Assembly (NCBI GenBank): GCA_012838385.1
Contig: DUPL01000044.1
Coordinates: 1 to 64,000, forward strand
Direction: 5' to 3'
Length of the DNA stretch: 64,000 bases
Source: Clostridiaceae bacterium
GTDB lineage: Bacteria; Bacillota; Clostridia; UBA1212; DUPL01
The position numbers were made by a program, and so were the translations under genes. The notes under the pieces were generated by a model. It had not been told where the DNA came from. It did not search any database and worked only from the letters and a program-made list of their open reading frames with translations. Positions 23,875 to 35,469 of this stretch are shown here, in pieces. How positions within the stretch are numbered: the stretch's first letter is position 1; each line of letters begins with the position of its first letter.

Positions 23875-23903
23875 TTGACAATGGTAATCGGTTAGTATAT
23901 AAT
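23875..23903 (+). promoter_or_regulatory. consensus promoter of the cofactor-uptake operon
   Basis: Exact TTGACA (23875-23880), 17-base spacer and exact TATAAT (23898-23903). Transcription would start near 23910, about 245 bases before the first gene, leaving room for the riboswitch. It is the best sigma-A match in the window, so control is probably exerted after initiation. Confidence 0.9.
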
Positions 23904-23949
23904 CTAAATGCTTTGATATTTTTTTAACAATATTAAAGTGAAAAAAATA

Positions 23950-24052
23950 CTGGTTCCGAGTGTTTTCTACCTAAAGCCAAAATGGCCATGGGGAAACACC
24001 GATAGGGTTGAAAGAGAAATTTTTCAGCCTTCCGGAGTTGAAAAGGAACAGG
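23950..24052 (+). ncRNA. Moco/Tuco-type riboswitch aptamer (candidate)
   Basis: The leader folds into a compact structure. Stem GTGTTTTC/GGGAAACAC (23960-23967 with 23992-23999) encloses CC/GG and the hairpin GCCA-AAA-TGGC (23976-23986). A second hairpin GGTTGAAA/TTTCAGCC spans 24006-24029. A closing stem can form between TTCCG (23954-23958) and CGGAG (24033-24037), or alternatively GTTCC (23953-23957) with GGAAC (24045-24049). The architecture and the downstream genes (ECF transporter, MobB, molybdopterin-fold proteins) point to the molybdenum/tungsten cofactor class (Moco RNA motif). I matched this from memory of the class, not by a covariance search. Confidence 0.7.
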
Positions 24053-24085
24053 AAAGAAATCACCCTTATGGGTGGTAATTTCTTT
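24053..24085 (+). promoter_or_regulatory. intermediate hairpin of the riboswitch expression platform
   Basis: AAAGAAAT (24053-24060) pairs with ATTTCTTT (24078-24085), and CACCC with GGGTG around a TTAT loop, with a GTA bulge. It brings GGAACA (24045-24050) next to TGTTCC (24095-24100), which could form an antiterminator by pairing 6 of 6 bases. Confidence 0.6.
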
Positions 24086-24088
24086 ATG

Positions 24089-24125
24089 TTCTCTTGTTCC
24101 GGACGGAATCAAGAGAATTTTTTTT
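24089..24125 (+). terminator. riboswitch-controlled rho-independent terminator
   Basis: Arms 24089-24100 (TTCTCTTGTTCC) and 24105-24117 (GGAATCAAGAGAA) form a 12-bp stem with one bulged T and loop GGAC, followed by eight T (24118-24125). It lies between aptamer and first gene, so it decides operon expression. Confidence 0.9.
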
Positions 24126-24154
24126 GATAAAGAAATTAAAAGGAGAAGAATAAA

Positions 24155-25351
24155 ATGAAAAAGCATCTATTAATCTTGGCGATATTTGTATTAGTTTTAG
24201 CACTGGCTGCTGGGTGTGCAAATAATAACGGTCAGAACACCACACCAACACCTACTGATGCACCCCAGTCCTATGAGGATGACGACTATATTCTTGAAAT
24301 TGTAGGAATCGGGGATGAAACCATCAAAGTGACAAAAGGGCAAATCAGGGAACTTGCCGCAGGTGGCAAACTTGTTGAGTACGGCGAAGACCAGCCTGCA
24401 TACGCATCCGACAAGACTGACGATGATGGCAACAAAATTCCACACACATTGAAAGGAGTATATTTCGACGATATACTTGAAGTTTATGCAGATGACGCAA
24501 AAACTTCCGATTTTACAAGCATGTCTATTTATGCCGAAGACGGTTACGAGACAATTCTTTCAGCTGATGTCTTCAACGTAGAACAAGGCGGAGTTAAAAT
24601 GATTGTTGCCTTTGAGTATGACGGCATTGAGCTTAATCCAAATGAGAAGAGCGGAGCTTTGAGAGTTGTTTTTCCTGACAAGCCGGCAAATACCTGGGCA
24701 AAACAGGTTTCCAAGATAGTTTTGGCAAGTGAGGAAGATGAGGAAACAGTTCCGGAAACTGAAAGCGTATACTTCTCAGAATCAACCGGAGACAAATATG
24801 ACGGTAGTTATGAGGTAGACGGTACTACATATTATGGAACAAGCTTCAAAAAAATATTTGACGACGGAATATTGAAGAGCGGTGATAAGGCCCAGATGTT
24901 CGTATATTCGTGGGATGGAACCGAGTATACAAGCTTGAAGACAAAAGAGTATTACGAGGATGCGTTCTTGGTTTATGCATCAAAGGATGCTGACAGTGAC
25001 GAGTTTGCTCAAGAGAAGGACGCACCGGTATTCAATGGGGCAAACATTTTAAAAGGCATGAAGGTAAAACACACCATGTATGTGACTGTTGAAAACACTT
25101 CTTTTGCAGTACTTGACAAAGTTTTTGAAAAGCTTGATTCCAAAGGCAAAGGCAGTATTCTTGTTAGTGAGCTGCTTGATGAAATAAATATGAAAGAAGC
25201 GTCAATCTATACCATAACCGGGGTTGACGGCACTGAAAAACAGGCAAAGAAAGAAGATTTAAAGGATATAAGGATTGAGTCAACAGATGAAGGATACGTT
25301 GTTTCAGTTGATGGCAGTGAGTTTGTAATATTGAGCATACAGGCGAAATGA
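24155..25351 (+). CDS. lipoprotein with sulfite-oxidase-type molybdopterin-binding fold
   Basis: The 398-residue protein has a lipoprotein signal (LALAAGC, lipid Cys near residue 21) and a Thr/Pro/Gln-rich linker. Residues about 45-190 follow the order of the oxidoreductase molybdopterin-binding (SUOX) domain: TLKGVYFDDILE, IYAEDGYE, MIVAFEYDG, and GALRVVFPD with WAKQVSKIVL. A second, weaker copy may occupy 200-398 (SFKKIFDDG, then SELLDEINM). The lipid Cys is the only cysteine, so the Cys that ligates Mo in true enzymes is absent. It is probably a binding protein on the outer face of the membrane. It is first gene after the riboswitch, and its stop overlaps the next ATG. Confidence 0.75.
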   Translation: MKKHLLILAIFVLVLALAAGCANNNGQNTTPTPTDAPQSYEDDDYILEIVGIGDETIKVTKGQIRELAAGGKLVEYGEDQPAYASDKTDDDGNKIPHTLKGVYFDDILEVYADDAKTSDFTSMSIYAEDGYETILSADVFNVEQGGVKMIVAFEYDGIELNPNEKSGALRVVFPDKPANTWAKQVSKIVLASEEDEETVPETESVYFSESTGDKYDGSYEVDGTTYYGTSFKKIFDDGILKSGDKAQMFVYSWDGTEYTSLKTKEYYEDAFLVYASKDADSDEFAQEKDAPVFNGANILKGMKVKHTMYVTVENTSFAVLDKVFEKLDSKGKGSILVSELLDEINMKEASIYTITGVDGTEKQAKKEDLKDIRIESTDEGYVVSVDGSEFVILSIQAK

Positions 25352-25914
25352 GGAAGGTTATTAAATCATATTCTGTTTTGGATCTGGTATTAATAGCGAT
25401 GCTAGCAGCCCTTGCTACAGGCTTCAAGACTGTTGCAAACACACTGGTCAAGTTAATAACAGGTCCTTTGGGAATCCCAGGAGGGGCTTTGGCAGGCGGA
25501 TTTTATATGATGTGGCTTGCCATTGGGCATTCGGTAGTTCGTAAATTTGGGGTATCTTTCATGATATCCCTTGTCCAGGCTCTCGTACTATTTACAACCA
25601 GCGCACCAGGCAGCCACGGCATCTGGACTTTCATAACGTATTTGATTCCCGGACTTTGCGTTGACATTGTGTTTCTCTTTGCAAGAAAAAACAATGCCAA
25701 TGTTCTGCATTTCATGATTGCCGTGATGATGGCAAATGTACTGGGCACACTAGGGAGCTTTTTGCTATGGTTCAGGTTATCCTGGTTGTGGCTTGCGTTT
25801 AGCCTGACTGCAGCGGCTTTATCCGGAGCAATTGGAGGGCTTGTGGCATATTCTGTTGATAAGGGAATTAGGAGAATTGGTTTAATTTTCAAAGAGGATG
25901 GGGCAGATCAATGA
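25348..25914 (+). CDS. ECF transporter substrate-binding (S) component
   Basis: The 188-residue membrane protein has about six helices and the S-component look: a short N-terminus (VLDLVLIAMLAALATGFK), a Gly-rich loop (GPLGIPGGALAGGFYMMW) and a C-terminal helix with SVDKGIRR. The A, A' and T genes follow in the same operon (27891-29920), so this is a complete ECF importer of group I type. The substrate is not known from sequence. Riboswitch control and MobB suggest a molybdopterin-type cofactor or precursor. ATGA overlap on both sides indicates coupling. Confidence 0.85.
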   Translation: MRKVIKSYSVLDLVLIAMLAALATGFKTVANTLVKLITGPLGIPGGALAGGFYMMWLAIGHSVVRKFGVSFMISLVQALVLFTTSAPGSHGIWTFITYLIPGLCVDIVFLFARKNNANVLHFMIAVMMANVLGTLGSFLLWFRLSWLWLAFSLTAAALSGAIGGLVAYSVDKGIRRIGLIFKEDGADQ

Positions 25915-27356
25915 AAAGAGCACTATTGATACTGACAGTTGTCTTGTTGGTGATTTTTGCAGGATGCACGAACAAGGAAAGTGAACCAGGCAAATACATA
26001 ACCGTAAACGGGGATATAGAAGGCGTCTCTGTAGAAGTGAACTTGAGTGATATTTCAAAAGAAGAGATAGCAATAAAGGATACACTTTACAAAGGGGTGC
26101 GTTTGTCAAAGGTTCTTGAGAAGGTTTCACTACTGGCACCTGTTGATAAGAGCTATGTAATGATAACAGCCATAGACGGAGTGTCTGCACTAATTGATGC
26201 GGAGACTGCCAACTTGTGTCATGTTGTCGAAGTAGAAGGAGTTTTGAACATAAAGGCTCCGGAACATCCGAGGGTTGTTGGTATCAAGCATGTTCTTGAG
26301 ATTACAATAGTTGCCCATGAGGATGTGGAAATTTCTGATGAGAATTCTCTAAAAATTGTGGATCAAGAGGGTGACAGACGTATAAGTTTTGGAAACTGCA
26401 AGCTCCTTATGTTTGAGAAATCAGGTGAAAGTAGACAGAACGGAAATCTCGCTGTGAAGTATGTAAAGAAAGCGCCATTAAAGGCGGAAGAATTCATCGG
26501 CGATGATTTCGTACTTTACTTCGACAACTATGACATGCTGAAAGTGGATAGGGATTATGCAGGTGTTTTTGTTTGGGAAAATGGCAGAATATATTATGAA
26601 ACGGACGAGAGGTACGATAGTCCTGTTACAGGTATTGTGACAGGCGTCGACACCGTTATATTCGATGCCTTTGACATGATGAAGATATTATTGGATAAGA
26701 ATGAAATGGTTATGTTTATCCTGCCTGACGGGTTGTCTTACGAGCAGGTGGAATATTACAAGGATAACCTTACAATATTATCAGGCAATTACAAAAAAGC
26801 AGCCAGCGTGAACCCAGCCATATCAAATGTGGCTTTGGCAGCAATAATTACCGGACAATCACCTTTTGCAACAGGCATAACAAAGAGGGAAGTAAAAGCT
26901 CCTAACGTAAAGGACATTTTTGAATACGTTGTCAGTAAAGGGAAAACGGCATCATATATTGAAGGGAATTCAGTATTGGTTGTAACCTCGGAAAAGCCAA
27001 AACTGAATGTAGCCAACTCGGAAGGATATACTGATAAAGGCGTATTTGAAACAGCCATGTATGAACTGGGCAAAAATCCTGATTTTTTATTCATACATTT
27101 CCACGGCATTGATGATGTAAATCACGAGTACTCTCCTTTGTCAGAGGAAGCCAAGCAGAAGATATATGAAATAGAAGGATATATTAAAGAGCTGGTTAAA
27201 AACTTTTATGGGCATGTGATAATTGTGCCTGACCATGGAGCAGTGACTATAGAAGACACGGATGGGACAAAAAGAGGAAAACACAGCTTGTTCAAGTATG
27301 GAGACATGTATGTGCCCTTCTACTATTTTGAAAGGGGTAGTTTGATTGAAGAATAG
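25911..27356 (+). CDS. lipoprotein: molybdopterin-fold plus alkaline-phosphatase-superfamily domain
   Basis: The 481-residue protein begins with a lipoprotein signal (LLVIFAGC). Residues about 30-140 look like a SUOX-type fold (LYKGVRLSKVLEKV, then VMITAIDGVSALIDAE, then VVGIKHVLEITIV). The C-terminal 230 residues form an alkaline-phosphatase-superfamily domain with all expected ligands: Asp273 (FILPDGLS), nucleophile candidate Ser305 (NPAISN before ITGQSPFATGI), Asp401/Asp402 and His405 (GIDDVNH), Asp441/His442 (VPDHG), His458 (GKHS). It should hydrolyse a phosphoester or pyrophosphate outside the cell, for example a nucleotide from a dinucleotide cofactor. Overlaps both neighbours. Confidence 0.8.
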   Translation: MKRALLILTVVLLVIFAGCTNKESEPGKYITVNGDIEGVSVEVNLSDISKEEIAIKDTLYKGVRLSKVLEKVSLLAPVDKSYVMITAIDGVSALIDAETANLCHVVEVEGVLNIKAPEHPRVVGIKHVLEITIVAHEDVEISDENSLKIVDQEGDRRISFGNCKLLMFEKSGESRQNGNLAVKYVKKAPLKAEEFIGDDFVLYFDNYDMLKVDRDYAGVFVWENGRIYYETDERYDSPVTGIVTGVDTVIFDAFDMMKILLDKNEMVMFILPDGLSYEQVEYYKDNLTILSGNYKKAASVNPAISNVALAAIITGQSPFATGITKREVKAPNVKDIFEYVVSKGKTASYIEGNSVLVVTSEKPKLNVANSEGYTDKGVFETAMYELGKNPDFLFIHFHGIDDVNHEYSPLSEEAKQKIYEIEGYIKELVKNFYGHVIIVPDHGAVTIEDTDGTKRGKHSLFKYGDMYVPFYYFERGSLIEE

Positions 27357-27894
27357 GAATGTGCTTATTGCACTGGTTATATTGGTTGTACTTTCTATTC
27401 TGTTTGGTGTTATGCTGTTTGTCTTTATGAATGAAAACAAGAAAAACGTGGAGCAGTATGAAAAAAGGGAAATTGCAATTACCATCAATGGAGAGAGGGA
27501 AGTATATACCTTTGAAGAATTGATGGAGATAAGCCAGCCGGTTGATTTTAAGGCAATATACAAGCCTAGCAACAAGGAACCCATAGAAAAGACCTATACC
27601 GGAATAGAATTGAGGGACCTGCTTGAGAAGTTGGGGGCAGACTTGGAGAACATGAAACAGATTACATTTACTGCAAAAGACGGTTTTCAGAAAGTGTACC
27701 GGGCAGAGGATGTAAGGAAGGAAACCAATGTATTTATAACGCATTTGGTGAATGGAAAGCCTTTCAACGAAGGCATTGATGTGATGGCATATGAAAAGGA
27801 ACAGGAAGATGGCGGACCTTTTGTGGTAATAAAGGCGGAAGACAAAGTAAGCCAGAACAGAGTAAAAATGCTTGTAGAGATTGTGGTGGAATGA
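27346..27894 (+). CDS. membrane-anchored molybdopterin-fold protein
   Basis: The 182-residue protein has an N-terminal anchor helix (about 5-28) and an outside domain with the same SUOX-like order as the two preceding lipoproteins (KTYTGIELRDLLEKLG, then ITFTAKDGFQKVYRAEDV, then GGPFVVIKAEDK, then VKMLVEIVV). No cysteine is present. Start is TTG 27346, with AAAGGGG about 9 bases upstream and an 11-base overlap with the phosphatase gene. It is probably a third capture or docking protein for the ECF transporter. Confidence 0.7.
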   Translation: MKNRNVLIALVILVVLSILFGVMLFVFMNENKKNVEQYEKREIAITINGEREVYTFEELMEISQPVDFKAIYKPSNKEPIEKTYTGIELRDLLEKLGADLENMKQITFTAKDGFQKVYRAEDVRKETNVFITHLVNGKPFNEGIDVMAYEKEQEDGGPFVVIKAEDKVSQNRVKMLVEIVVE

Positions 27895-28556
27895 AACTTA
27901 CAGTAGAAAATCTAACAGTAATGTTTAAAAACAGAATTATACTTGATAATGTATCATTACAAGTTGAAGCAGGAGAAATTGTTGCAGTAGTCGGACCAAA
28001 TGGCAGTGGAAAATCCACACTTTGTACTGCAATTGCAGGTGTGTCTCAAAATTATGGACTGAGTACTGTTGGCAGAATAAGGATAGGTGACAAAGAGTTG
28101 TCCCAACTCAGTATTCATGAAAGATGCGCCTTGCTTGGTGTCATATTCCAGAATTCTGATAACTTTCTTTTTTCTCAATATGTTGAGGACGAGCTTCGGT
28201 TTGCGCCTGAAAATCTATGTGTTCCCAGGGCGGAAATTGAAACAAGAATAAAAGAAGCTTTGGATTTTACCGGTATTAGCTATTTAAGACATAGAAAAAT
28301 TCAGGAGCTTTCGGGAGGGGAGAAGAAGCTGGTTTCAATTGCGTCTGTTTTAACCATGATGAGCAAATTCCTAATAGCGGATGAAATAACTTCCGGAGTA
28401 GACGAGGACAGGAAGGTTCAGATACGGGAGATTCTAAGAAAACTAGCCAAAGACAATATTGGAATACTAATGATATCCCACAACAGAAACGATATTGAAA
28501 TTGCTGACAGAATATATGTATTAAAGGATGGCAAATTGCATGATAGAACTGATTGA
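27891..28556 (+). CDS. ECF transporter ATPase A
   Basis: The 221-residue ATPase has Walker A GPNGSGKST at 35-43, Q-loop VIFQNSDNFLFS, signature LSGGEKKL and Walker B FLIADEITSGVD with ISHN. The Q-loop fits energy-coupling factor ATPases. It overlaps the next ATPase gene and works as heterodimer with it. Confidence 0.9.
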   Translation: MKLTVENLTVMFKNRIILDNVSLQVEAGEIVAVVGPNGSGKSTLCTAIAGVSQNYGLSTVGRIRIGDKELSQLSIHERCALLGVIFQNSDNFLFSQYVEDELRFAPENLCVPRAEIETRIKEALDFTGISYLRHRKIQELSGGEKKLVSIASVLTMMSKFLIADEITSGVDEDRKVQIREILRKLAKDNIGILMISHNRNDIEIADRIYVLKDGKLHDRTD

Positions 28557-29193
28557 CGTATCCTTTGCGTATAACAAGAACAACATGGTTCTGAGAAATA
28601 TTACATATACATTCAAAGAAGGTGTACTGTATGTTTTGGGCGGAAAAAACGGCTCAGGCAAAACCACAATGGGAAAACTAATGTGCGGCCTTGTAAAGAC
28701 AAAACAAGGTATTGTCAAGGTAAGCGGAACCAATATATATAAAAAGACTGTTGGCGAGATATCAGAACATGTAGGGTATTTGTACCAGAATCCTGATTTG
28801 CAATTATTTGCACCGACCGTTTATGAAGAACTTGTTTTTCCTTATGAACTGAATGGAACACTGACTTATGAAATAAAAGAGAGGGCGGAAAAGCTGCTCC
28901 AGGTCTTCAAGCTTGAAGACAAAAAGGACACCTTTCCTCTGCTCATGTCCTTGGGAGAAAGACAGAGGCTTGCTCTTGCCACAATAATGATGAGGGACAC
29001 CAAATTCATTATATTTGATGAACCGACATCCTCCATTGATGCGGAATGCAAAGCAATGATACATGAATTTATATTAAGCTTTGTTGAAAATGGAGGAGGA
29101 GCTTTTATAATATCACATGATGAGGATTTCAATTTGAACGGAGTAAACGGCATGAATCTGAGGATGGAAGGTGGAATGCTGTATGAAAAGTAG
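28540..29193 (+). CDS. ECF transporter ATPase A'
   Basis: Second ATPase of the ECF module, 217 residues from ATG 28540 (MIELIDVSF); ATG 28528 is in frame but lacks a ribosome binding site. Motifs: Walker A GGKNGSGKTT, Q-loop YQNPDLQLFAP (diagnostic for ECF ATPases), signature SLGERQRLAL in place of LSGGQ, Walker B FIIFDEPTSSID, ISHDED. The altered signature resembles asymmetric ECF pairs. Overlaps A by 17 bases and T by 11. Confidence 0.9.
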   Translation: MIELIDVSFAYNKNNMVLRNITYTFKEGVLYVLGGKNGSGKTTMGKLMCGLVKTKQGIVKVSGTNIYKKTVGEISEHVGYLYQNPDLQLFAPTVYEELVFPYELNGTLTYEIKERAEKLLQVFKLEDKKDTFPLLMSLGERQRLALATIMMRDTKFIIFDEPTSSIDAECKAMIHEFILSFVENGGGAFIISHDEDFNLNGVNGMNLRMEGGMLYEK

Positions 29194-29920
29194 ACTGGAT
29201 CCAAGAATCACCATGTTGTTTATTGTACTGACATCCACACTGTCCGTCCTTGCCTCAAATGTATATTGGCTGCTGCTGGTCTTTTTATTGACCCTGTTGT
29301 TAAACATTGTATTCAGATTAAATCCATTGAAGACTCTGTACAGAATGAGAAGGCTTGTGTCAATGATAATCTTCATAGCCTTTTTCCAAAGCCTCACAAC
29401 TTCGGGAGGGAGACCAATTATTACTTTGCTCGGTGCAAATATTGTAACTTCCAAAGGACTTGTGGACAGCTTGTCTTTTGTACTCAGGATGGGCAACATA
29501 ATGCTGGCCGTCATGCTCGGTACAAAACATGACAGTCGTGATATGATAGACGGACTTGCAAAACTCAAGATTCCTTATGAGCTGGCCTTTATGACAGGAA
29601 TAGCACTCAAGTTTATTCCACTGTTTGGTCAGGAGTTTGCCGATAGAATAAAAGCCGTAAGTTTGAGAGGAATAAATATTAAGAAACTCAAGCTGTCAAA
29701 AAAGATAAAAATCTATTCACACATTTTGGTGCCTGCAATTTCCGGCAGCATTATCAAGAGCAGGGATATTGCCTCATCCATGGAGACAAGGGGATTCAGG
29801 GCGTATCCTGATAGAACCAATTTAAGAGTATTGAAACTAAAATTAGCAGACTATATCGCAATGATAATTGCATCATCAATATTTTTACTAATCATATACT
29901 TTATGTTTGCAAGGAGGTAG
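29183..29920 (+). CDS. ECF transporter transmembrane (T) component
   Basis: The 245-residue protein from ATG 29183 (GGTGG eight bases upstream) has about five to six helices and the EcfT signature near residues 200-222: SRDIASSMETRGF with YPDRT, where the long helices contact the ATPases. It completes the S-A-A'-T set in one operon, indicating a dedicated transporter rather than a shared module. MobB follows 2 bases after its stop. Confidence 0.9.
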   Translation: MKSRLDPRITMLFIVLTSTLSVLASNVYWLLLVFLLTLLLNIVFRLNPLKTLYRMRRLVSMIIFIAFFQSLTTSGGRPIITLLGANIVTSKGLVDSLSFVLRMGNIMLAVMLGTKHDSRDMIDGLAKLKIPYELAFMTGIALKFIPLFGQEFADRIKAVSLRGINIKKLKLSKKIKIYSHILVPAISGSIIKSRDIASSMETRGFRAYPDRTNLRVLKLKLADYIAMIIASSIFLLIIYFMFARR

Positions 29921-29922
29921 TT

Positions 29923-30663
29923 ATGAAAGTATTAACGGTAACGGGGCTTAGCGGAAGCGGAAAGACCACCGTAATAGAGAATTTGATAAAAGAACTAAAA
30001 AGAAGAGGTTATTCCATAGGAAGTGTAAAGGAGATTCATTATGAGGCGTTTGCCATTGATACTCCTGGAAAGAACACCTACAGACACAGACAAGCAGGAG
30101 CAGAAATTGTAACAGCAAGAGCTCACAATGAAACAGACATATTGTATCCCGGACACCTGCCGATTTACGAAGTGCTCTCCCACTATAATCAGGACTATGT
30201 TTTGCTTGAAGGAGTAAGGGACTGTGTGGCTCCGGAGATTGCTGTTTGCAAGGAAGATGCTGAGCCTGAAATAACTCCTCTTACGTTTGCAGTAAGTGGA
30301 AGGTTTGCAAACACCGGTGTTACGGAGTACAAGGGTCTTCCTGTAATATCAGCAGTTGATGACATAGGAAGACTGGCAGACCTTGTCGAGGAAAAGGTTC
30401 CGAGTTTAATGCATGATATAGAGTATGAATGCTGTGGTGAATGCGGTACGGATTGTAGAGGATTTCTTGCAAGGCTTCTGAAGGGAGAGGTTGTCAGTTC
30501 CGATTGCGTACTGAGTCAAAGAGAAGTCAAGTTGATTATCGACGGTCAGGATATTGTAATGGTGCCTTTTGTTCAAAGGATACTGAAAAACGCAGTGGTG
30601 GGAGTTGTATCGGAACTTAATGGGTACAAGGAAGGAAAGAAGATAGTAATAGAGATAGAATGA
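29923..30663 (+). CDS. mobB: MobB-like molybdopterin-guanine dinucleotide protein with Cys cluster
   Basis: MobB binds GTP and assists MobA in attaching GMP to molybdopterin. The 246-residue protein has an N-terminal P-loop (GLSGSGKTT, residues 8-16) and the MobB motifs KEIHYEAFAID, TYRHRQAGAEIV and DYVLLEGVRD. A C-terminal extension carries a Cys cluster (Cys170, Cys171, Cys174, Cys178, Cys195: CCGECGTDC ... SSDCV), which probably binds an Fe-S cluster or a metal. MobA is not in the window. Position inside the ECF operon links it to processing of the imported compound. Confidence 0.88.
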   Translation: MKVLTVTGLSGSGKTTVIENLIKELKRRGYSIGSVKEIHYEAFAIDTPGKNTYRHRQAGAEIVTARAHNETDILYPGHLPIYEVLSHYNQDYVLLEGVRDCVAPEIAVCKEDAEPEITPLTFAVSGRFANTGVTEYKGLPVISAVDDIGRLADLVEEKVPSLMHDIEYECCGECGTDCRGFLARLLKGEVVSSDCVLSQREVKLIIDGQDIVMVPFVQRILKNAVVGVVSELNGYKEGKKIVIEIE

Positions 30664-31313
30664 TGGGCGAAATTATTAAGCGGTTCGAGAGCAAGAAAAA
30701 CAGTGTTTTTCTAGTAAGTGTGGAAGGAATCATGCAAGTTGTAAAGGTGCATGAATCAGAGGAAAAAGCCTACTTTGAATCAGAGGTTTTAAAAAGGCTT
30801 TACTTGTATGCTAACGTACCAAAGGTTATTAAGGTAGAATCAAACAGGATCTACATGGAATACATAGAGGGAAAACTTGCTGTTGACTACTTTCTCGAAT
30901 GCGATACTGAAGAAGTAAAAGAACTGGCAAGACAGATGCTATCCTTTTGCCGGGTTTACTCAGACCAATTTGATAACTTCCGTTTGTCGGATACAAACTT
31001 CCGGAATTTTATCGTGGTTGAAATGGACGAAGAAATTGAATTGTACGGTGTTGATTTTGAGGAAAGGGAAGAAGGCACACTGATAAAAAGTGCAGCTGAA
31101 CTGTGTGCTTTCTCGTTTTTGTATGATGTTGATGCTTATAAGAAGAAAACCTTTTACAATACAATTGCATCAAATTGCTCCGAGCAGGAAGTTGACTTTT
31201 TAAACGACTATATTTTTAATAGCTTGAATAAGCTTATTAAAAGACGCAGATTGAATTTAAATGTTAAAAGTGTCTTTGAAGAATTGGTAATTGGCAACGG
31301 GCATATGGTATAA
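30660..31313 (+). CDS. small protein-kinase-fold phosphotransferase, unknown substrate
   Basis: The 217-residue protein shows a minimal kinase/APH-type fold: candidate ATP Lys29 (VVKVHESEE), helix-C Glu near 37-40, hinge YMEYIEGKLA, catalytic Asp111 and Asn116 (SDTNFRN) and metal Asp132 (GVDFEE). The glycine loop is short. It is related in layout to RIO/Kae1-associated and small-molecule kinases. ATGA overlap with mobB places it last in the cofactor operon. By analogy with vitamin salvage operons, it could phosphorylate an imported dephospho-cofactor, which is my inference. Confidence 0.7.
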   Translation: MMGEIIKRFESKKNSVFLVSVEGIMQVVKVHESEEKAYFESEVLKRLYLYANVPKVIKVESNRIYMEYIEGKLAVDYFLECDTEEVKELARQMLSFCRVYSDQFDNFRLSDTNFRNFIVVEMDEEIELYGVDFEEREEGTLIKSAAELCAFSFLYDVDAYKKKTFYNTIASNCSEQEVDFLNDYIFNSLNKLIKRRRLNLNVKSVFEELVIGNGHMV

Positions 31314-32138: not shown

Positions 32139-32399
32139 TTATCCCGCAATTATGACAGGAAATATTTTTATCCTGTCGCCATCTTTAATCGGATCGTTCC
32201 AGTTGTGTTTGACACTGTTTATGGTTGCAAATCCAACTTCTTCATCAGGAATGTTCAATAACGAAACAAGTTCATCCAATAGGATTTCATCTCTTCCGTC
32301 AATTGAGAGTTCAAAACTGTTCTCGTCGTCCTTGAACCTTTCCTTGTTGTACTTTTTCAATGTGTGAAACAGCTCAACAGTTATAACCATCTTAGACAA
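32139..32399 (-). CDS. MoaD/ThiS-like small sulfur-carrier protein ending in Ala-Gly
   Basis: The 86-residue beta-grasp protein (ITVELFHTLKKYN ... LLDELVSLLNIPDEEVGFATING-like core, then IKDGDRIKIFPVI) matches MoaD/ThiS. These are adenylated by MoeB/ThiF-type enzymes at a C-terminal Gly-Gly and carry thiocarboxylate sulfur into pterin dithiolene. This one ends in Ile-Ile-Ala-Gly, not Gly-Gly. It overlaps the AOR gene by 8 bases, as MoaD-like genes often do next to tungsten oxidoreductases, and it may serve tungstopterin maturation. A MoeB-like gene lies at 34741. Confidence 0.8.
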   Translation of the reverse strand: MSKMVITVELFHTLKKYNKERFKDDENSFELSIDGRDEILLDELVSLLNIPDEEVGFATINSVKHNWNDPIKDGDRIKIFPVIIAG

Positions 32400-34170
32400 A
32401 CTCCTTTATTGACTCATCTTCTTCAGCCAAAATTTCCTCGCAACGCCTTGCATATTCTTCTGCAATCTCGTTTGCCATATACTGATCAAGTTTGCCTGTT
32501 GTTGTTGGTGTTTCAAAAAATCTCTTGGGAAGCTTTACATCCTGTATTGCAAAGCCCAAGGATTTCTTAATCTCTAGCTTTGTTCTCAGGATACGCTTTG
32601 CAATATCTGTCAGTGTTTCGTCAGTATAGTCAAGCCCAACGCATTTAAGGACCATCCTGATATTTTCCCTGCTGTATACTTTACGTGCAAACAGGCATAT
32701 GATTAAAGAATTCAGCAGGCAGCGCTCGATTTCCTCGCTAATAAGGTAGTCTACGAGTTTTTCCTTGTCAAGCTCCTTGTCCCTGTTGGACTGGTCATAT
32801 GAATAGCCTGCATTACAGAGGTGAGAATGTCTTGCGCCTACCAATGCGCCTACAAGAGAGCCGTAGCCCGTGTGGTAACCAGGCATTTCGTTACCAGCAA
32901 TCTGCATGCCAAAATCATAACCGCCATACTTCTTGGCTACGTGTTTTACTCCCTTGCCCATATCGGTATAGAGCTGATTGACACCTTGTGCAATGTAGTC
33001 GACAGCTTTAGCAAGGTTTACATAATCGCCCATCTTCAAAGGCAGAATGGTTTGCTCTTCTGTAATGATGCCCCTTTCAAGAGCTTCACAAGCCCATCCC
33101 AGAACAACACCGCAGGACATGGCGTCAAGCCCGTTTCTTTCAACAGCATCGATAACGTATAAAACTCCATCCGTATTATCAACACCAAGGAATGAGCCAA
33201 GTGCATAAATTAGTTCGTAGTCGTATCCGACCGAAATCGCTTCGTACTCATAGCCGTGGTCAAATTCACGTCTGAACTGTCCTATGTGTATGCATCCAAC
33301 AGGACATCCTGTGCATGCCATTTTTCTAATCAGGTTGTTCTTCGCAAAGGCCTCTCCTGAAATATTTTCAGCATGCTCAAAAGTTCCAGAGGTAAGGTTT
33401 CGGGTCGGAAGACCTCCCATGGCGCTCAATGGCTCTACGTTTATGGGAGTGCCGGCATCATGATATTTTGCCATTACTTCTGTTTCGGTTACCTGTTTGT
33501 ACAGTTTGGAGTAGGTCTTGAAATAGTCCTTGAAATTGGGTATTGGCATGGGAAGATCGCCTGTAACCTGCATTGCTTTCATAAGCTTGCTGCCAAAAAC
33601 GGCACCCAGGCCCAGTCTTCCAAAATGTCTGTATGTGTCAACGCAAACACTTGCATAGGAGCACAGATTTTCACCTGCAGGACCTATGCGGATGATGGAA
33701 CGCTTTCCGCTTCCATGCTCCCTGTTTCTGATATATGAGCCTACCTTGTCGGAGTCCATTCCCCAAAAAGCGCGTGCGTCCTTTATTTCCACTCCTGTTT
33801 GTGTAACTGTAACATAACAAGGTTTTTGAGATTTACCTGTAATTACTATGGCGTCATAGCCTGCATGCAGCATTGTGAAGGCGAGTCTGCCACCTGCATA
33901 GGACTCACCCAGTTCTCCTGTTAGAGGAGAAACAAACATGGCTACAGTCTTGGTTATGACTGGAAATACAGATGAAGCTGCGCCAATTGCAAAAATTATA
34001 GGTTGATCCTCATGAAGGGGAGGCAAATCAGGATTCATGTTTTCCTGTAGGAGTTTTGAGGCAACTCCCACACCTCCCAAATAGGCTCTAAGATCCTTTC
34101 TCTTGTCAACCCTTATGCGGCCTGTTGAGAGATTTATATTCAAAACTCTTATGTAATCTTTATAAAACAT
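32392..34170 (-). CDS. aor: tungsten-type aldehyde:ferredoxin oxidoreductase
   Basis: Oxidises aldehydes to acids, or the reverse, with a tungsten bis-pterin and one 4Fe-4S cluster, exchanging electrons with ferredoxin. The start is ATG 34168-34170 (MFYKDYIRVL), with GGAGG nine bases upstream on the minus strand; 592 residues. Motifs: LGGVGVASKLL and PLTGELGESYAGG in the N-terminal pterin-binding domain, the cluster motif CTGCPVGC near residue 290, and LGWACEALERG later. It overlaps the ferredoxin gene by 11 bases and the MoaD-like gene by 8. Confidence 0.92.
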   Translation of the reverse strand: MFYKDYIRVLNINLSTGRIRVDKRKDLRAYLGGVGVASKLLQENMNPDLPPLHEDQPIIFAIGAASSVFPVITKTVAMFVSPLTGELGESYAGGRLAFTMLHAGYDAIVITGKSQKPCYVTVTQTGVEIKDARAFWGMDSDKVGSYIRNREHGSGKRSIIRIGPAGENLCSYASVCVDTYRHFGRLGLGAVFGSKLMKAMQVTGDLPMPIPNFKDYFKTYSKLYKQVTETEVMAKYHDAGTPINVEPLSAMGGLPTRNLTSGTFEHAENISGEAFAKNNLIRKMACTGCPVGCIHIGQFRREFDHGYEYEAISVGYDYELIYALGSFLGVDNTDGVLYVIDAVERNGLDAMSCGVVLGWACEALERGIITEEQTILPLKMGDYVNLAKAVDYIAQGVNQLYTDMGKGVKHVAKKYGGYDFGMQIAGNEMPGYHTGYGSLVGALVGARHSHLCNAGYSYDQSNRDKELDKEKLVDYLISEEIERCLLNSLIICLFARKVYSRENIRMVLKCVGLDYTDETLTDIAKRILRTKLEIKKSLGFAIQDVKLPKRFFETPTTTGKLDQYMANEIAEEYARRCEEILAEEDESIKEFV

Positions 34171-34579
34171 CGTCGACTTCCTCCATTGTAAGACATTGAT
34201 GTGGACAGAATCTTGTGCAGGATCCACAGTGTTTGCAGATTATTGGCAAATTCTCTTCCTCGTCAAAAAACACCGCACCAACTATGCAAGCATCAACACA
34301 CTTTTTGCATCCGGTACACATATCCTTGTTAAGCAGGACACCGCCTCCTTTACGTTCAACCAACGCACCTGTAGGACAAGCTTCAAGACATGCTCTGTCA
34401 TCCTTGCATGCGTGGCATACAGTTGCATAGAATCCGTGTTTCAAGCCTCCGTTTGTCTTTATTTTTATTGCACTTTTTGAAATGGAGAAGTTGTGTTTGT
34501 TGACAGCTGCACATACGGTCATGCATGAAAAGCAGCCAATGCACTTCCTCATTCCGTCTGTTCTAAGCGCTCTTGCCAC
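34160..34579 (-). CDS. four-cluster ferredoxin partner of the AOR
   Basis: The 139-residue protein has sixteen cysteines in four 4Fe-4S motifs: CIGCFSCMTVC, CHACKDDRACLEACP, CTGCKKCVDAC and CKHCGSCTRFCP, the layout of HycB/AorB-type electron carriers. It starts with GTG at 34577-34579 behind GGAAG. It is the first gene of the ferredoxin-aor-moaD-like operon and should pass electrons between AOR and the cell's ferredoxin pool. Confidence 0.92.
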   Translation of the reverse strand: MARALRTDGMRKCIGCFSCMTVCAAVNKHNFSISKSAIKIKTNGGLKHGFYATVCHACKDDRACLEACPTGALVERKGGGVLLNKDMCTGCKKCVDACIVGAVFFDEEENLPIICKHCGSCTRFCPHQCLTMEEVDDVL

Positions 34580-34719: not shown

Positions 34720-34740
34720 AATAATATAGGGGTGAACAGA

Positions 34741-35469
34741 ATGAGTACACACAAATCAAGCAAAAGATATGAAAGGCAGATGAATTTACAGAGTCTTCCC
34801 GACAACTTTCAGGACTTATTGCGTAATAGCAAGGTGTTGATTCTGGGAGCAGGAGGCTTGGGCTGTGCAGCCTCCATTTATGTCGCTGCAGCTGGTGTTG
34901 GAAAAATAACGGTGGTGGACAGGGACACTATAAACGAGCCCGACTTGAACAGACAGATACTCTATACACCGGAGGACATAGGAAAAAAGAAAGCCAAAAC
35001 ATGTGTGGAGAGGCTACATAAATTCAACCCGGATATAGAATGTGTGGGATTGGCAAAGGAGATAAATGACAAACTACTAAAGGACCTTGTTCCGAAGCAT
35101 GATATTGTCATGGATTTATGCGACAACTATTCCACGAGAATAAAAATAGCTGAAGCATGTCAAAAATATGGTAGGCAATGTGTGGTTGCAGCTGTAAATG
35201 GACTTGAAGGATTTGTGATGGTTACAGACAAAGGTTCTGCATGTTTTGGTTGCCTTTATCCTGACGAAGTAAAGCTTTCAGTCAGCCCGCCGAGGGTTTT
35301 GGGAGCAGCAGCAGGAAATGTGGGAGTTCTAGCTGCCATGCGATGCATACTGACTTTATGTAATGTTGGAAAGGTCGGTGTCATGTATTGTCTTGATTTT
35401 ATAAACATGATTATTGACGAGATAGAGATAACGAAAAGCACCAATTGTCATGTTTGCTGCAAGGCTTGA
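34741..35469 (+). CDS. MoeB/ThiF-like adenylyltransferase
   Basis: E1-like enzyme expected to adenylate the C-terminus of a MoaD/ThiS protein. ATG 34741 (MSTHKSSKRYERQMNL, 242 residues) has AGGGGTGA upstream. Motifs: RYERQM, the nucleotide loop GAGGLGC, DRDTINEPDLNRQ, DNYSTR, and paired zinc cysteines (ACFGC ... CHVCC). It is divergent from the AOR operon and is the likely activator of the MoaD-like protein at 32139. A terminator hairpin overlaps its stop codon. Confidence 0.88.
   Translation: MSTHKSSKRYERQMNLQSLPDNFQDLLRNSKVLILGAGGLGCAASIYVAAAGVGKITVVDRDTINEPDLNRQILYTPEDIGKKKAKTCVERLHKFNPDIECVGLAKEINDKLLKDLVPKHDIVMDLCDNYSTRIKIAEACQKYGRQCVVAAVNGLEGFVMVTDKGSACFGCLYPDEVKLSVSPPRVLGAAAGNVGVLAAMRCILTLCNVGKVGVMYCLDFINMIIDEIEITKSTNCHVCCKA

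Follow-up and report, generated by a model that had tools for sequence, protein, structure and literature searches.

The closest described relatives of the nine-gene operon reported here, which lies in a 64,000-nucleotide (nt) stretch of a Clostridiaceae bacterium draft genome (contig DUPL01000044.1, positions 1 to 64,000; the window), come from transport, pterin signalling and riboswitch biology. The group I energy-coupling factor (ECF) transporter YkoEDC of B. subtilis imports thiamine using a PF09819 S component and dedicated A and T components encoded in one riboswitch-controlled operon. In C. difficile, queuosine is salvaged by QueK/QrtT/QueL, whose operon likewise combines a riboswitch and an ECF S component with salvage enzymes (PMC11477304), and the ECF transporter LhaSTA of S. 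lugdunensis imports a large cofactor that contains metal and is obtained from proteins (PMC7299338). PruR, an exported protein with a SUOX fold but without the metal-binding cysteine, binds pterins (tetrahydromonapterin) in the periplasm (PMC13259868). Riboswitches of the molybdenum cofactor (Moco)/tungsten cofactor (Tuco) class that lack the P3 stem correlate with tungsten-cofactor metabolism, according to the original description (Regulski et al. 2008, PMC2408646). Moco itself is so unstable that most cells needing it are believed to supply themselves (PMC9793310), and the passage of pterins across bacterial membranes has been stated to be unknown (PMC13259868). The first-pass annotation of this DNA knew of no importer for the cofactor, and our searches of the open-licence literature likewise turned up no description of one in bacteria.

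We read the operon as an ECF-based system for the uptake and salvage of a molybdopterin-type cofactor, here probably the tungsten form, with transport itself predicted, and give this reading a probability of roughly 0.8. The ligand, the imported species, any co-import of metal, the direction of the switch and the trimming and rebuilding steps are what we infer from the operon's parts. At low intracellular Tuco or Moco the riboswitch would allow transcription, whereas at high levels the terminator would form. SUOX-fold surface proteins would bind the pterin outside the cell and an extracellular AlkP/NPP-type domain would cleave phosphate or a nucleotide from it. A dedicated group I ECF transporter (S, A, A' and T) with a membrane-anchored SUOX partner would then import the pterin. 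Inside, a kinase would probably restore the phosphate and MobB would handle the cofactor before it reaches aldehyde:ferredoxin oxidoreductase (AOR).

The riboswitch and conservation of the operon

The operon leader carries the only RF01055 match of the 2.57-Mb host draft genome (92.5% complete). In a covariance-model search of the window its score far exceeds the gathering cutoff of 36 bits (E 7e-14; Table 1). The P3 stem is absent from this aptamer and from the seed RNAs, and by inspection the aligned Moco RNAs of relatives also lack it. The aptamer is thus P3-less, the proposed tungsten-cofactor type. The terminator hairpin is stable (−15.2 kcal/mol, z −3.9) and is followed by U8, and an alternative hairpin overlaps its 5' arm, making a ligand-on/transcription-off switch plausible. 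Thus the promoter, the Moco-type aptamer and the terminator named in the first-pass annotation were all recovered, the aptamer belonging to the expected class and, moreover, to its P3-less type.

To follow the S component across genomes, we scanned 84,980 species genomes and obtained 158 relatives, from which 80 loci were kept. Most of these are from Clostridia, with others from Halanaerobiales, Dehalococcoidia (Chloroflexota), Heimdallarchaeota and one Actinomycetota metagenome-assembled genome (MAG); many of the genomes compared are MAGs. Counting the window as an 81st sequence, the gene clusters contain the A component in 74, T in 71, the short SUOX protein in 68, MobB in 61, the long SUOX protein (gene 1) in 58, AlkP in 55 and the kinase in 46, and gene order is preserved between phyla. 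Using a custom covariance model built from nine relatives' RNAs, we found a Moco RNA upstream of the S gene on the same strand in 56 of the 80 loci. Of the remaining 24, 12 end less than 3 kb from the S gene and several others are archaeal or long-leader operons. Of 50 carrier genomes, 48 contain RF01055 itself. Thus the suspected co-occurrence of the operon with Moco RNA motifs holds across phyla. Three Desulfallaceae-type genomes (G087, G091 and G090) hold 16–31 Moco RNAs per genome, no fewer than the roughly 15 reported for S. wolfei in 2008.

Carriage of the S component also tracks AOR. In an independent set of 393 genomes of the class that are at least 90% complete, 15 of the 16 carriers encode an AOR (Fisher 1e-13, kinship uncorrected).

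Biosynthesis genes and client enzymes in carrier genomes

A salvage system is expected in organisms that use the cofactor but do not make it. To assess this, MoaC, MoaA, AOR and MoeA were searched in 54 carrier genomes (52 distinct) by single-family searches. In the host and a congener, MoaC, MoaA and MoeA were not found, nor was an enzyme of the dimethyl sulfoxide reductase (DMSOR) family (PF00384). Each has one AOR, which in the host is the one beside the operon. MoaC was absent in 18 of the 52 distinct carriers, and MoaA, MoaC and MoeA were all absent in 15 (G000, G001, G059, G060, G061, G065, G066, G072, G076, G081, G094, G096, G100, G102 and G106). Of these triple-negative carriers, 13 have at least one AOR and up to eight; G076 has no AOR and two DMSOR-family enzymes, one of them inside the same gene cluster. 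Thus a large minority of carriers, the host included, keep the operon without MoaA, MoaC and MoeA, and client enzymes are nearly always present; carriers are largely AOR or molybdoenzyme organisms, which favors the reading of the first-pass annotation.

Two of these genomes deserve mention. G106 is the complete chromosome of Clostridiaceae M8S5, so missing contigs cannot account for its lack of the Moco genes; it encodes an AOR and a DMSOR-family, formate-dehydrogenase-like enzyme with an in-frame TGA that is probably selenocysteine. G100, a Heimdallarchaeota genome, has five AORs, and MoaA, MoaC and MoeA were not found in it. Mapped onto the tree of S components, the losses require 12 changes, at least four of them forced by well-supported branches, and this scatter indicates that the pattern arose repeatedly. 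MoaC is missing from 18 of 52 carriers and from 5 of 37 AOR-positive genomes without the S component (one with an AOR fragment only), giving p 0.03 with kinship uncorrected. Because this excess is modest, we place more weight on the complete-genome cases and on the scatter of losses.

A carrier that has neither MoaA nor MoaC could make no use of tungstate or molybdate by itself. This bears on the idea that tungstate, molybdate or a metal chelate is the cargo of the ECF transporter, with the SUOX proteins and MobB as accessories. The Moco riboswitch class does also control molybdate/tungstate transporters (PMC2408646). Additionally, in one relative locus (L071) this RNA precedes a gene for a TupA-like binding protein, another (L013) has a FecCD/Peripla_BP_2 ABC system, and CbiMNQO is a precedent for ECF systems that carry metals. 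However, metal alone would be useless to the 15 triple-negative carriers, the fold of the S component is that of YkoE and not the metal-type CbiM/NikM architecture, and alongside MobB and a kinase the operon encodes an NPP domain and domains resembling pterin proteins. We therefore consider metal import unlikely.

Under the cofactor-salvage reading, the lack of MoeA in 15 carriers points to import of a metalated cofactor or to another route of metal insertion, while the presence of MoeA inside some operons (L018) fits import of metal-free molybdopterin. MoaE was considered as a marker for import of cyclic pyranopterin monophosphate and set aside as uninformative, since most MoaA/MoaC-positive carriers also lack a PF02391 match.

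Several observations weigh against cofactor salvage. About two thirds of carriers have MoaA and MoaC, so the system is not confined to auxotrophs; in the 393-genome sample, 13 of the 15 AOR-positive carriers are also MoaC-positive, indicating that salvage often supplements synthesis. The triple-negative carrier G096 has neither an AOR nor a DMSOR-family enzyme. Four near-complete genomes (G267, G287, G351 and G426) are AOR-positive and MoaC-negative without the S component, and may have a second, other route to the cofactor. Metal insertion in carriers without MoeA is hard to explain unless the cofactor arrives metalated. Lastly, the PruR pocket is reported to hold small pterins and is probably unable to fit Moco (PMC13259868), making the PruR analogy a lead and not a proof. 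Nevertheless, co-occurrence with Moco RNA, the AOR-bearing carriers, the absence of MoaA, MoaC and MoeA and the PruR-like SUOX domains support the salvage system that the first-pass annotation had put forward as a candidate.

The operon proteins, their neighborhood and variants

Sulfite-oxidase enzymes carry a cysteine metal ligand upstream of a W/Y-x-G-V motif. In the operon family, 108 of 109 SUOX domains with a Y-x-G-V motif have no cysteine within 30 residues upstream, and residues 58–91 of gene 4 are without cysteine across 46 homologues. To judge by their sequences, these domains are probably binders and not enzymes. The AlphaFold2 model of gene 4 (pLDDT 94.7, N-terminal helix 4–39) matches the sulfite dehydrogenase SorA and PruR by Foldseek, and the nearest solved relatives of the SUOX domains include pterin-binding PruR. 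The fold, the export anchor and the lack of the cysteine are thus shared with PruR, while pterin binding is predicted.

These features bear on two further explanations. In the first, the SUOX proteins are extracellular Mo/W oxidoreductases with flavin electron carriers, and the ECF operon supplies such respiration. Some operons do add flavin mononucleotide (FMN)-binding lipoproteins (FMN_bind), ApbE, Fer4_5/FMN membrane proteins and S-layer SUOX proteins. However, given the near-universal lack of the cysteine ligand, export by lipobox or anchor signals instead of Tat, and the absence of flavin genes from the window and most loci, we regard this as very unlikely. Where flavin proteins do occur, one possible reading is that they supply electrons that keep extracellular pterin reduced. 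In the second, the operon senses or recycles ordinary reduced pterins as in PruR signalling. PruR, a tetrahydromonapterin binder, is indeed the closest characterized SUOX protein without the cysteine (PMC13259868). Moco RNA control, the AOR and DMSOR clients, the MobB or MobA partners and the missing MoaA and MoaC speak against this. Molybdopterin, moreover, is synthesized from GTP, and ordinary pterins do not serve as its precursors. We hold this version to be quite improbable as well.

The S component was modeled by AlphaFold2 with a pLDDT of 92 and six helices, and the closest structure is YkoE (PDB 5EDL; Foldseek probability 1.0, TM 0.72). A profile search against PDB sequences gave no match, so that the relative was found by fold search alone. 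Since its own S, A, A' and T components are encoded in one operon and the S component has six helices, the transporter is of group I. An importer of thiamine or a precursor could be imagined from the YkoE fold, PF09819 membership and the invariant Tyr/Trp residues on helix 2, which resemble the YkoE Tyr46/Trp49 site by a presumed equivalence drawn from the YkoE paper. A tblastn search for plasmid-borne YkoE as a comparison sequence returned no match. Thiamine import is nonetheless very unlikely: the leader is a Moco RNA, and Rfam scans of the window and other loci brought up no TPP (thiamine pyrophosphate) riboswitch. Additionally, the protein forms a separate subfamily (true members 222–293 bits, next relatives at most 118), is linked to AOR, and keeps consistent SUOX, MobB, AlkP and kinase partners.

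The putative processing enzymes of the salvage pathway retain intact catalytic motifs. In gene 3, the AlkP/NPP metal ligands D273, D401, H405, D441, H442 and H458 and the nucleophile Thr/Ser 305 are conserved, and this di-metal site (D, T/S, D, H, D, H, H) is invariant or nearly so in 28 homologues. Gene 9 matches Bud32, RIO and amicoumacin kinase in PDB profile searches and conserves K29, E40, D111, N116 and D132, the catalytic residues of the kinase fold. An extracellular NPP-type domain together with an intracellular kinase would fit a scheme in which a phosphate or nucleotide is taken off and later put back. For MobB, both PF03205 and TIGR00176 score above cutoff; among homologues, Walker A is kept in 59 of 61 and the Fe-S motif in 50 of 55 full-length proteins.

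The nine genes follow the leader as co-directional open reading frames. Seven of their junctions are overlaps, of 4, 4, 11, 4, 29, 23 and 4 nt in turn, and the remaining one is a gap of 2 nt. This layout is as first described, and the protein assignments, including the SUOX domain at the N terminus of gene 3 and the kinase-like gene 9, are borne out by the matches in Table 1.

Table 1. Leader elements, operon genes and adjacent genes in the window.
Feature	Positions	Strand	Basis and remarks
sigma-70-type promoter	23875..23903	+	TTGACA-17-TATAAT matched at 12/12 positions
Moco/Tuco riboswitch aptamer, P3-less type (proposed tungsten-cofactor type)	23942..24064	+	RF01055, 66.7 bits; short linker joins P2 to P4
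Expression platform	24048..24125	+	alternative hairpin 24048-24104 versus terminator hairpin ~24088-24118 + U8
Gene 1, SUOX-fold lipoprotein	24155..25351	+	PF00174, 26.7 bits, above cutoff; lipobox by eye
Gene 2, ECF S component, YkoE fold, own subfamily	25348..25914	+	PF09819; AlphaFold2 model; Foldseek 5EDL
Gene 3, lipoprotein, N-terminal SUOX + AlkP/NPP-superfamily domain	25911..27356	+	PF01663; SUOX by hhalign profile comparison, 96% probability; complete metal site
Gene 4, membrane-anchored SUOX-fold protein, PruR/SUOX-like, no Mo-cysteine	27346..27894	+	PF00174; AlphaFold2; Foldseek
Gene 5, ECF ATPase A	27891..28556	+	ABC_tran; TIGR04520 E 3e-52, under equivalog cutoff
Gene 6, ECF ATPase A'	28528..29193	+	ABC_tran; TIGR04520 E 3e-42, under equivalog cutoff
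Gene 7, ECF T component (CbiQ family)	29171..29920	+	PF02361 E 3e-26
Gene 8, MobB GTPase + C-terminal Fe-S motif	29923..30663	+	PF03205 E 2e-24; TIGR00176; PRK14494-type
Gene 9, Bud32/RIO/APH-like kinase	30660..31313	+	weak RIO match; conserved catalytic residues
MoaD/ThiS-like small protein	32139..32399	-	weak Ub-Mut7C match; C-terminal IIAG; adjoins AOR
AOR, tungsten-type	32392..34227	-	PF01314 + PF02730
4Fe-4S partner of AOR	34160..34579	-	
ThiF/MoeB-like adenylyltransferase	34732..35469	+	PF00899 E 6e-57; divergent from AOR cluster

Downstream of the operon lies the AOR, its likely client enzyme. The window had been described as free of moa and moe biosynthesis genes. This stands for moaA, moaC and moeA, but not for the MoaD/ThiS-like gene that adjoins AOR or for the ThiF/MoeB-like gene. 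In a genome that lacks MoaA, MoaC and MoeA, these two are possible remnants of dithiolene sulfur transfer.

Operons elsewhere vary in content. A minimal, divergent variant in the MoaC-negative, 100% complete genome G180 (locus L105, G180:C2:6001-25900) has a Moco RNA in front of genes for an S component, a SUOX-like protein (E 2e-13 by profile) and MobA, and adjoins a DMSOR-family, formate-dehydrogenase-like enzyme. In Heimdallarchaeota (L070, L080 and L062) the S component, a SUOX protein and MobB occur together. At the other extreme are long riboswitch-led operons (L022, L029 and L047, first 9 kb), in which a Fer4_5/FMN_bind membrane protein precedes the ECF genes and S-layer (SLH) SUOX proteins of ~385 and 1,140–1,340 residues are encoded upstream of them. 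In L013 (6270-9206) and L067 (4639-8372), the Moco RNA is separated from the ECF operon by a FecCD/Peripla_BP_2-type ABC importer (Pfam-checked in L013) and a conserved 248-residue protein that matches no Pfam family. In L071 (6455-9913), a surface protein encoded immediately after the ECF genes combines SUOX, a Shr-like haemoglobin-interacting domain and Fn3-associated repeats, which suggests capture of the cofactor from shed proteins.

Comparison with known systems and significance

We think it reasonably likely that the operon represents the first importer and salvage pathway for this cofactor known to us. Auxotrophic bacteria and archaea would take molybdopterin made by others, possibly metalated and as dinucleotide forms or from shed enzymes, process it extracellularly by means of an NPP-type hydrolase, import it through the ECF transporter and rebuild it in the cell, where MobB and a new kinase would act. 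Some lineages would be aided by flavin electron carriers and S-layer SUOX proteins. If true, such an importer would explain how organisms with AOR or formate dehydrogenase live without MoaA, MoaC and MoeA, add the Mo/W cofactor to the vitamins traded in anaerobic communities, and define new ECF, NPP and kinase functions. It would also be a lead for Moco supply across membranes, which is relevant to research on Moco deficiency.

The operon shares its RNA class, and the P3-less type, with the regulons described in 2008, and the portion of that report used here shows no importer or salvage operon (Regulski 2008, PMC2408646). The same portion notes as exceptions the P3-less RNAs that precede putative sulphite oxidase genes in S. 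wolfei. By analogy with the Syntrophomonadaceae loci, these 'sulphite oxidases' could be SUOX-fold surface proteins, and a cofactor importer, if real, could account for the RNAs in front of them. PruR shares the exported, cysteine-less SUOX fold and the binding of a pterin predicted here, but differs in its signalling partner DcpA, its small pterins, its occurrence in Proteobacteria and its lack of a transporter (PMC13259868). LhaSTA is iron-regulated and imports heme; it has no Moco riboswitch, and no SUOX, AlkP, MobB or kinase partners are described in the consulted part of its report (PMC7299338). QueK/QrtT/QueL has the same arrangement of riboswitch, S component and salvage enzymes, but serves queuosine/preQ1 through a shared ECF module (PMC11477304). 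Closest in S-component fold, PF09819 membership, dedicated A and T components and riboswitch control is YkoEDC, from which the present operon is set apart by its own S subfamily, a Moco instead of a TPP riboswitch, and its SUOX, AlkP, MobB and kinase partners.

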